A DNA stretch of 64,000 nucleotides from Actinomycetales bacterium (lineage in GTDB: Bacteria; Actinomycetota; Actinomycetes; Actinomycetales; Microbacteriaceae): assembly GCA_015655415.1 (NCBI GenBank), contig JAATFB010000088.1, forward strand, positions 62,001 through 126,000, given 5' to 3'. Position numbers and translations under genes: made by a program. The notes below the pieces were generated by a model that was not told the origin of the DNA, ran no database searches, and saw nothing but the letters and a program-made list of their open reading frames with translations. Position 1 is the first letter of the stretch. Every line of letters starts with the position of its first letter. This document shows, piece by piece, positions 18,155 through 34,748 of this stretch.

Positions 18155-18227
18155 GCGCCATTAGCTCAACGGATAGAGCATCTGACTACGGATCAGAAGG
18201 TTGGGGGTTCGAATCCCTCATGGCGCA
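18155..18227 (+). tRNA. tRNA-Arg (anticodon ACG)
   Basis: This 73-nt cloverleaf has acceptor arms GCGCCAT and ATGGCGC, D-arm GCTC...GAGC, anticodon arm TCTGA-CTACGGA-TCAGA with ACG in the middle of the loop, a T-arm containing GGTTCGAATCC, and discriminator A. CCA is not encoded. The 3' half from 18194 is the prophage attachment core, so phage DNA now supplies everything downstream, yet the tRNA stays intact. The A34 anticodon would need deamination to inosine to read CGU/CGC/CGA. Confidence 0.95.
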
Positions 18228-18522
18228 CAGCAGCCCCGGCTTCGGCCGGGGCTTTTTCGTTCTGTGACTGTGGAACGGCCTGAGCGAACCACTCCAGGTC
18301 AATGCCAGTGACCCGAGCTATCCGCACCATTGCCGAGTACGAGGGTTCTCCTCGCCCGCTCTCCCAGTTGCTGATGGTGTTGCGGGCGACGCCGACTGCA
18401 GAAGCGAGCGTCGTCTGATCGAAGCCGCCTAGTAGGCGGGCGGTCTTGATCAGCTGCGAGAGCGGTACGCCCGCGTAGTCGAGTGGCGGGACGCTTGGCC
18501 TTGACGATGGCGCGATGGTCAT
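18193..18522 (-). CDS. Prophage repressor (XRE-type HTH), C-terminus set by attL
   Basis: This 109-residue protein has an N-terminal helix-turn-helix (TLASAVGVARNTISNWESGRGEPSY split over residues 38-62; key W-E-S-G-R) typical of Cro/C1-like XRE regulators. Its last residues VRHEGFEPPTF are antisense translation of the tRNA core, and its TGA stop uses one host base at 18193. In the circular phage that base would be C, giving Trp, and the frame would continue 23 more residues (codons at 34713 down to 34647, stop 34644-34646). It is divergent from the early genes, as expected for a lysogeny repressor. Confidence 0.8.
   Translation of the reverse strand: MTIAPSSRPSVPPLDYAGVPLSQLIKTARLLGGFDQTTLASAVGVARNTISNWESGRGEPSYSAMVRIARVTGIDLEWFAQAVPQSQNEKAPAEAGAAVRHEGFEPPTF
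18194..18228 (+). repeat. attL: 35-bp attachment core inside tRNA-Arg
   Basis: The core runs from the anticodon-stem 3' side through the acceptor end and one base beyond. It is identical over 35 bp to 34714-34748. Outside the core the two sites diverge at once (T versus C before it, AG versus CG after it). It is also read in antisense as the last codons of the repressor. Confidence 0.93.
18232..18257 (+). terminator. Intrinsic terminator for tRNA-Arg, embedded in the repressor gene
   Basis: A perfect 9-bp stem (AGCCCCGGC and GCCGGGGCT) with a TTCG tetraloop is followed by TTTTT, the strongest terminator in the window. It lies 5 nt past the tRNA but on the phage side of attL, and on the other strand it encodes KAPAEAGA of the repressor. 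No T-tract exists in the repressor direction, so it should act one way only. Confidence 0.85.
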
Positions 18523-33318: not shown

Positions 33319-33561
33319 CTATCGGCGTGACCAACGGGCGTGAGCGGCTTGCTTGCTCACGCCCGTTGCGCGTGCGATGTCCGCCCACGATCGGCCGATC
33401 GCCCGTTGCCCCTCCACGGCGCGGGCGATCGCTTCGTGCAGCTCGTCCTCCAGGCCGATCAGCTCGGCCAGCTCGATCTCGTCAGCGTCCGCCACACGTC
33501 GCCCAGCGGCCCGGAGCATCCGCCGCAGCATCGCGAGGTATTCGCCCGTCTCGACGCTCAC
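33319..33561 (-). CDS. Small helix-turn-helix protein coupled to the integrase
   Basis: This 80-residue protein has a C-terminal HTH (RSWADIARATGVSKQAAHAR) of the kind widespread in actinobacterial small DNA-binding proteins. Its ATG overlaps the integrase stop (33558-33561), so it is co-translated with int. It could modulate integrase or int-operon expression; unlike the HTH at 20480 it lacks the Xis wing. The end of the gene encodes a 14-bp perfect inverted repeat. Confidence 0.65.
   Translation of the reverse strand: MSVETGEYLAMLRRMLRAAGRRVADADEIELAELIGLEDELHEAIARAVEGQRAIGRSWADIARATGVSKQAAHARWSRR
33332..33368. terminator. 14-bp perfect hairpin between convergent prophage operons
   Basis: CAACGGGCGTGAGC (33332-33345) and its exact complement (33355-33368) flank a 9-nt loop, 15 bp after the holin stop and inside the last codons of the HTH gene. 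No T-tract on either strand. Position suggests a bidirectional terminator or a block on read-through into the antisense int operon. Confidence 0.5.
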
Positions 33562-34439
33562 CCTGCACCACCCGCCGACCGCAATTCGACCGTCAAGGCA
33601 GGCTTGACGGCTTCACCGCCCGCGGCCGCGAGCACGATCCGGCGTGCTTTCGCCGCGCTCGCTCTGGGCACGTACCGTCGTGTCGTCGCCGGTGAGGCAT
33701 GTCCGAGAAGCTCCTGCACCACGAACAGGTCGGCGTCGATCGCGTAGGTGCGGGCAGCAAACCGGTGCCGCAGCGTGTGGATCGTCCACTTGCCCTCCAG
33801 CGCCTTGCTGGCTTGCTTCCCCACCCACTCGGGCGACACATGCCCGTCACGCTCACCGGGGAACGCCGCGCCGGTCTCGAGCGTGCGCAGCTCGGCGGCG
33901 ATGCCCGGTGTGAGCGGCACCACACGCTCCTTGTTGCCCTTGCCATGCACGAGCAGCGACCAGCCCACGAGGTCCTCGATCAGGTCGTCGGAGTGCACCT
34001 GCGCGATCTCGGCCCGCCGTAGCCCCAGCTCGGCGGCGAGCCTCAGATACAAGCGCACGCGCGGCTTCGAGCGCATTAGCGCTTCCAGGTAGACGCGATC
34101 CGGCGCCGGCCGAGCTATGCCAGGCTTCGACTTCACACGCGGCAGCGCAGCGGCCGCGTCCACGTCCGTGAGCCCCATCGCGATCGCCCACCGGTAGAAA
34201 GACCGGAACGTCGTCCGCCGCCCCCGCCGCGTCTCCTGCGCCCACTTCTGCCTGCCCGTCCAGAGCACAAGCTGAGCCGGCGTGATCTCGAACGGCCCCG
34301 CACCGATCCCACGCGCCAGGTTCGCTAGATGCTGCCTCCTGCACCGGATCGTCGTCTCCGGTGCTCCGCCAGCCCGCTGATCGATCAGATACGCCTCGAT
34401 GACCTCATTCCACTGTGCTGTGAGAATCTTCATAATCAT
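33558..34439 (-). CDS. Tyrosine-family site-specific integrase
   Basis: This 293-residue recombinase has an N-terminal SAM-like core-binding domain (ETTIRCRRQHLANLARGIG) and a catalytic domain with Arg in LGLRRAEIAQVH (about 142), HTLRHRF (His221, Arg224), His247 in LLGHASPAT and the nucleophile Tyr256 in RRYVPRA. It catalyses attP x attB recombination in tRNA-Arg. Translation is linked to the small gene upstream (35-bp overlap) and to the HTH gene downstream. In the prophage no promoter is visible before this operon. Confidence 0.92.
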   Translation of the reverse strand: MIMKILTAQWNEVIEAYLIDQRAGGAPETTIRCRRQHLANLARGIGAGPFEITPAQLVLWTGRQKWAQETRRGRRTTFRSFYRWAIAMGLTDVDAAAALPRVKSKPGIARPAPDRVYLEALMRSKPRVRLYLRLAAELGLRRAEIAQVHSDDLIEDLVGWSLLVHGKGNKERVVPLTPGIAAELRTLETGAAFPGERDGHVSPEWVGKQASKALEGKWTIHTLRHRFAARTYAIDADLFVVQELLGHASPATTRRYVPRASAAKARRIVLAAAGGEAVKPALTVELRSAGGAG

Positions 34440-34647
34440 CAGACGATCGCACGGCGTGACTCTCGGGCTCCGGCGCTACGAACACGCTCGGAATGGAGGT
34501 GATGTTCCGGTACACGCGCGACGGCACGATCACCGTCCCCTCGGGCGGCGGCGGCACCACAGCCGTCAGCCTGTCCTCGAATGGCTCGCAGACGCACGGA
34601 CCCTCGGCCTCACCCCAGGCAACGCCGCACGTGCATGTGCCCTTCAC
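34405..34647 (-). CDS. Small Cys-rich protein between repressor and integrase (circular-phage order)
   Basis: This 80-residue protein from a GTG start begins MKGTCTCGVAWGEAEGPCVC: two CxC pairs that could bind zinc, then a proline-rich loop and an acidic tail. In the circular phage its GTG would overlap the stop of the extended repressor by four bases (GTGA, 34644-34647), and its end overlaps int. In the prophage it is cut off from that upstream gene. Function unknown; a recombination or regulatory accessory role is suggested only by position. Confidence 0.55.
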   Translation of the reverse strand: MKGTCTCGVAWGEAEGPCVCEPFEDRLTAVVPPPPEGTVIVPSRVYRNITSIPSVFVAPEPESHAVRSSDDYEDSHSTVE

Positions 34648-34713
34648 GAGCGCACCGCCGCGAGCATCGCCGCGAGGATCATCACGCCGGCAGCGGCGGC
34701 ACCGTCCCCCAAC

Positions 34714-34748
34714 CAGAAGGTTGGGGGTTCGAATCCCTCATGGCGCAC
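34714..34748 (+). repeat. attR: 35-bp attachment core
   Basis: Exact copy of 18194-18228, containing only the 3' part of tRNA-Arg (from the anticodon stem 3' side to the acceptor end). The tRNA 5' half is absent, so this is a site, not a gene. Marks the right end of the prophage. Confidence 0.93.

Follow-up and report, generated by a model that had tools for sequence, protein, structure and literature searches.

A prophage in the window (the whole 64,000-nucleotide stretch of DNA analysed here) very probably uses integration-dependent immunity, in which a long repressor is inactive and integration yields a short, active form. As determined by direct reading and by script, the element is about 16.5 kb in size and carries a 35-bp direct repeat at both ends, 18194-18228 being identical to 34714-34748. 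This att core corresponds to the 3' half of a tRNA-Arg gene, and a script as well as the reconstructed att pairs placed it within the repressor coding sequence at attP. The integrase is of the tyrosine type, and attB lies in the tRNA gene. The argument draws on the following features.

18155..18228, plus strand: host tRNA-Arg gene (anticodon ACG), the attB gene rebuilt at attL and intact (ARAGORN)
18194..18228: attL common core, 35 bp, 3' half of the tRNA, identical to 34714-34748
34714..34748: attR common core, 35 bp, identical to the attL copy
18193..18195, minus strand: TGA ending the prophage repressor frame, with base 18193 contributed by the host; the four other genomes of the genus have this base too
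18193..18522, minus strand: repressor, prophage form, 109 aa, HTH_3 (Pfam PF01381, 1.3e-14; Phage_CI_repr, 1e-8; phrog_2328, 1.8e-17)
34644..34715, minus strand: attP-side tail of the long repressor frame (script joining the phage ends; hydropathy against dinucleotide shuffles)
34405..34647, minus strand: orfX, 80 aa, Cys-rich N-terminus, GTG start (GTGA, a 4-bp overlap with the long-form stop)
33558..34439, minus strand: tyrosine integrase, 293 aa (PF00589, 1.2e-17; phrog_1, 6.6e-34)
33319..33561, minus strand: small HTH protein downstream of int (phrog_686, 7.3e-9)
18232..18253, plus strand: terminator-like hairpin and T run just past the tRNA, antisense in the repressor linker (EKAPAEAGA) (hairpin search and recoding test)

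The minus-strand repressor frame (18522-18193) crosses the core and stops at a junction TGA (18195-18193) whose third base is host DNA. Base 18193 is t on the host side and base 34713 is c on the phage side; with the phage base, the same codon reads TGG. Joining the phage ends by script gave a 132-aa repressor with a 23-codon tail, WLGDGAAAAGVMILAAMLAAVRS, and a stop at 34646-34644. The prophage repressor is shorter than this phage form, its stop at attL being a TGA made by the host base. A preliminary description of this DNA had placed attP inside the repressor gene, and re-reading of core, junction base and frame to the base confirmed this. Its proposal that the C of 34713 turns TGA into TGG was borne out by direct reading and by script, and its 23 added codons, ending at 34644-34646 and making 132 instead of 109 aa, were right in both coordinates and translation.

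The host side of the junction could be followed in related genomes. The tRNA stretch including the junction base was present without mismatches in all five genomes of the genus (four others and the window's own), and in relatives the tRNA-Arg locus is free of this prophage. Over 1.2 kb and at 77-79% identity, the left flank shows synteny with that locus in G001, G003, and G004. On the right flank, the match extends just 18 bp beyond the core in G001 and G002 (~90%), which is too short for the right junction to be confirmed via flank synteny.

The gene order is rep, orfX, int, all on the minus strand with int downstream of rep. orfX gave no Pfam match and no PHROG match at 0.01. In the circular or virion form, the three genes are predicted to be cotranscribed as a single minus-strand operon that has attP within rep, and a 23-aa hydrophobic tail would keep the 132-aa repressor inactive, most likely by directing it to a host protease, FtsH-like or ClpXP. 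The integrase would recombine attP with the tRNA-Arg gene, upon which the host base beside the core would change TGG to TGA and cut the repressor to 109 aa. This short form is expected to be stable and to repress the early genes. Several observations count against such a switch: the tail ends in RS and the integrase in SAGGAG, two of 13 att pairs do not fit, a promoter search found no sigma-70-type promoter, and the search for an operator inverted repeat gave no clear one. The host SsrA tag was sought as well, with no tmRNA above the cut-off. The phrog_686 HTH protein encoded after int is a candidate excision factor or regulator; in G002b and G129, reading frames of similar appearance are situated between rep and int.

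Both proteins of the proposed switch have homologs in phages. Among the records of the phage collection, Curtobacterium phage Barebow provided the best match for repressor and integrase alike, with gp19 (33%, 1e-10, the alignment reaching the core edge) and gp18 (57%, 1e-64), respectively. The repressor also aligned, as far as the core edge, with gp33 of Angel, a Mycobacterium phage, and of its kin (33%, 3e-7), and the integrase matched Angel gp32 (47%, 4e-42); Angel is grouped with BPs. A megablast search of the whole prophage against phages matched just the core, in four mycobacteriophage records, three of which annotate an immunity repressor or transcriptional repressor there; this collection therefore holds no close phage relative. 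The tblastn search with the repressor returned 210 records, which include distant HTH proteins, and Barebow, Angel, Typha, PensacolaC28, and BonaeVitae were examined. Of 398 genomes sampled within the family, 27, including that of the window, contained an integrase match at 1e-35 or better; in 22 of the 27, the repressor also gave hits at or below 0.001, some of which are surely other HTH proteins. Where paired on one contig, rep and int were about 14-17 kb apart. A profile search at 1e-60 detected the integrase in 42 of 396 genomes of the order. The genome-contig loci numbered 80, of which L035-L038 were inspected one by one. In PensacolaC28 (L180, 2022-3741), the tRNA core seems to be translated in the sense direction within the repressor (SEGWEFESLRAHTV), the orientation opposite to that in the window, and the integrase is annotated as two genes. 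The C-terminal region of the Angel gp32 integrase (L002, 722-1918) holds a hydrophobic stretch, SIIAAAMILLGLGISDAIGGVL.

Broussard et al. reportedly described the integration-dependent immunity of mycobacteriophage BPs and its relatives in 2013. According to excerpts of two later papers, BPs gp33-136 is degraded and gp33-103 is active, with DNA binding alike (PMC4557955), and the TGA is made at the junction (PMC9262239). As far as these excerpts describe BPs-type systems, the prophage shares with them the proximity of rep and int, attP inside rep, a 35-bp core at tRNA-Arg, a junction base that turns a TGN codon into TGA, and homologous Rep and Int proteins (with Angel gp33 and gp32 as stand-in). 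On the grounds of this homology and like geometry, we expect the 132-aa form to be either unstable or sequestered and integration to yield a stable 109-aa form, degradation of the long form being most likely by analogy. The prophage differs from BPs-type systems in losing 23 residues instead of the 33 given in the excerpts, in a tail that is hydrophobic and not polar, in the presence of orfX between rep and int, and in its size of 16.5 kb compared to about 41 kb (Angel).

Parallels also exist in other phages and prophages. Barebow (PQ868957; gp19/gp18) has a small genome of 18.3 kb, the core inside the Rep gene and the same gene order, but its tail is polar and ends in LRRAS, and no gene is annotated between its rep and int; its record annotates neither attP nor immunity. 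The excerpts of PMC5559632 and PMC6109161 describe Gordonia cluster CW and Bifidobacterium Bb423phi2/689b-1 as small phages with attP inside rep, and GMA5 as having an ORF between int and rep. Unlike the prophage, those of cluster CW and Bb423phi2/689b-1 use tRNA-Lys and tRNA-Met, and Bb423phi2 and 689b-1 carry ssrA-like tags. In M. abscessus, MabC, MabN, MabO, and MabH are described in PMC8092301 as having attP inside rep and a repressor without ssrA-like tag, and the attL stop of MabC, MabK, MabN, and MabO is formed by the first bacterial base; the comparison with them covers attP, tag and stop. Judged by titles, the literature on integration-dependent immunity concerns mainly Mycobacterium and Gordonia phages, and also Bifidobacterium and Arthrobacter, with attP outside the repressor in the Arthrobacter case Galaxy as far as the accessible text goes. 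No report of such immunity in Microbacterium phages was found in the accessible open-access literature, and the open-access text on Curtobacterium prophages, as far as available, covers repressor and integrase with no attP. Judging from its sequence features, the system itself is the already known integration-dependent immunity, and its hydrophobic tail type may be a new variant. The lysogeny switch is thereby extended to small prophages found across one bacterial family.

An open stretch of 23 codons is by itself unsurprising in GC-rich DNA, and the geometry was reconstructed for 13 att pairs from 12 genomes (a 14th, G374, was dropped because the script gave no repressor hit). In 11 of the 13 pairs, the stop of the short form coincides with the edge of the core, and attP encodes a longer form; this count includes G292, whose rep and int are on different contigs and whose pairing was assumed. 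The short form of one misfit, G002b, extends past the core, and in the other, G037 (L127/L012), the repressor crosses the core in another frame, with an attP form shorter than the prophage form. In 8 of the 13 pairs, among them the window, the stop of the long form shares 4 bp with the start of a following frame of at least 40 aa. Furthermore, a long gene in an uninterrupted arrangement of rep, core, and int occurs in the phages Barebow (gp19), Angel (gp33), and Typha (gp53) and in the viral contigs L217, L220, L221, L235, and L271. Because of the 4-bp overlaps, the recurrence in 11 of 13 pairs and the uninterrupted long genes of phages and viral contigs, we judge the long frame to be real.

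The region between attP and int varies among these elements. Small Cys-rich frames, zinc-ribbon-like by eye, lie there in the window, in G392, and twice in G066, and other small frames do so in G225 and G342; in G129, L145, and L254, a Cys motif is located inside the tail frame itself. The loci behind the comparison of Cys-rich frames were L013, L017, L034, L019, L145, and L254.

For a wider view of the tails, we considered 149 loci with an integrase match at 1e-30 or better. An Arg-type core frame was missing upstream in 86 of them, and a stop occurred at the core in another 10, leaving 53 tails, or 47 after collapsing at 80% similarity, of which the 38 with at least 15 residues were tested for hydropathy. 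The window tail reached a maximum 15-residue hydropathy of 2.43, a value attained by none of 3,000 dinucleotide-preserving shuffles and, in a repeat run, by none of 1,000; over 17 consecutive residues it has no charged residue and no N, Q, H, or P. P values below 0.005 were obtained for 5 of the 38 tails, those of the window, G392 (..VMVWLVLSVLAAVRS), G225 (..LGLLLILALRSVSA), L217, and G066b. By the cruder criterion of a run of at least 11 residues without D, E, K, R, H, N, Q, or P, 6 of 48 tails were TM-like (window, G392, G412, G225, G240, and G002b); L192, whose tail has an alanine run, was assigned manually to the non-hydrophobic class. By eye, a second type of tail, of acidic and amphipathic character (DLLAIWAAEDVLAEVLS and similar sequences), also recurs. 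Relatives vary widely in the sequence of their tails. W or C as first tail residue was considered as evidence and dropped, since the search motif and the core frame already dictate it.

Alternatively, the attP frame might be open by chance, with both repressor forms active and the position of attP reflecting the use of a tRNA site beside rep. The ease with which 23 codons stay open in GC-rich DNA and the divergence of the tails would fit this, as would the close pair L220/L221, which showed no strong purifying selection on the tail: two synonymous and three nonsynonymous differences in 23 tail codons, next to eight synonymous and five nonsynonymous differences in the 112 codons of the body. 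However, the recurrent geometry, the start-stop overlaps, the contiguous long genes and the non-random hydrophobicity speak against it, and so does the fact that 35 of the 47 tails end in A or S (28 A, 7 S, 12 another residue), a proportion for which no background was computed. We consider an accidental frame very unlikely.

If the switch operates as proposed, the question arises of how the tail would inactivate the long form. The preliminary description regarded AA as the degron of the known systems and the lack of it here as a sign of a different mechanism. The phage-form repressor does end in AAVRS, without ssrA-like AA end, and the integrase in SAGGAG, likewise without AA. Known systems, however, do not all end in AA: the tail of Angel gp33 ends in LDKAS and that of Barebow gp19 in LRRAS, so an AA end is not the rule and the window tail resembles that of Angel in this respect. 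Published wording on the BPs-type tag differs, as far as the available excerpts go. PMC4557955 calls the BPs repressor end an ssrA-like tag, PMC9934374 defines the tag by two alanines and names it a key feature of the system, and PMC8092301 reports several M. abscessus repressors without ssrA-like tags, "similar to phage BPs". The RS end was dropped as proof of a new mechanism given the KAS and RAS ends and PMC8092301. What stands of the earlier claim is the hydrophobicity, which is recurrent and no composition artefact; the different route itself is plausible.

As background, FtsH degrades lambda CII. This degradation is mentioned in the accessible part of PMC4557955, and the composition of the tail would plausibly suit an FtsH-type nonpolar signal or membrane insertion. 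The same switch could operate without degradation if the tail anchored the long repressor in the membrane, off the DNA. The uncharged run and extreme hydropathy of the window tail and the similar segments in G392, G225, G240, G412, and G002b favor such capture, as does the distribution of the TM-like label on the integrase tree, where it needs five changes, at least four of them forced by starred branches (115 of 500 shuffles were as low; the tree was built by a quick method, with L008 on a long branch). Yet the window segment is short and alanine-rich, with a marginal 17-residue sum of -0.16, and the hydropathy test was weaker for other TM-like tails (P of 0.02 for G240 and 0.06 for G412). 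A nonpolar signal for FtsH or Lon is an equally good reading of this tail, hydrophobic tails occur together with small SA ends in G225 and G342, and the BPs long form, according to the PMC4557955 excerpt, still binds DNA and is inactivated by degradation. Membrane anchoring in place of degradation is thus rather unlikely, and proteolysis of the 132-aa form remains the preferred reading. The scatter of TM-like tails on the integrase tree indicates that the type arose or was exchanged several times. It is tempting to speculate, albeit only tentatively, that there is a class of integration-dependent immunity whose repressor is inactivated by a C-terminal TM-like segment (by membrane capture or as an FtsH-type nonpolar degron) and not by an ssrA-like ClpXP tag, and that small actinobacterial phages acquired or swapped this arrangement on several occasions. 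The inactivating tail seems to be modular, given that otherwise similar repressors carry small-residue ends, acidic-amphipathic helices or TM-like segments. If a hydrophobic tail inactivates the repressor, this may be a route undescribed so far, and natural tail variants would allow a direct test of the question, raised by PMC8092301, of how repressors that lack an ssrA tag are removed.

The absence of an AA end from both Rep and Int could also mean that the prophage has decayed and that the switch is historical, the RS and SAGGAG ends being lost degrons. The draft state of the genome (105 contigs, 87.6% completeness) adds to this concern. On the other hand, the int frame is full length with no internal stop, and head (Pfam) and portal (PHROG) family matches indicate that structural genes are still present, though only part of the genes was checked. 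Moreover, G392 and the window share the tail end LAAVRS with synonymous differences in four of six codons and no amino-acid difference. We consider decay very unlikely. LAAVRS as proof of protein-level selection was dropped: its conservation need not concern the protein, because the codons overlie the would-be ribosome-binding site of the next gene, orfX.

On its antisense strand, the repressor linker (..NEKAPAEAGAAV..) holds a perfect GC-rich hairpin of 9 bp with a T run after it. One terminator-like site was observed in the 1-kb region, compared to a mean of 0.7 in shuffles; against synonymous recodings, the window stem had a P value of 0.022, or 0.010 together with the A run. Perfect stems of at least 7 bp (P of 0.022 or lower) were found in 7 of 16 linkers, those of the window, G060, G342, G225, G292, G163, and Barebow, the last without T run. 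Two linkers had 6-bp stems (P of 0.23 and 0.30), and the remaining seven, including Angel and Typha, had no stem of 6 bp or more; nine viral contigs gave no row in the recoding test and are outside the 16. At the G003 site (L302), a hairpin and T run follow the tRNA, as seen by eye. Since integration parts the host tRNA from its former downstream DNA, where G003 has such a hairpin, the phage appears to supply a substitute terminator for the host tRNA, which would apparently also keep tRNA transcription out of the repressor antisense.

In G001 (L300/L305) and G002 (L301/L306), a second copy of the tRNA-Arg 3' stretch is located ~52.7 kb downstream of the tRNA. This copy has no tRNA gene of its own, which suggests that another element occupies the same site in these genomes.
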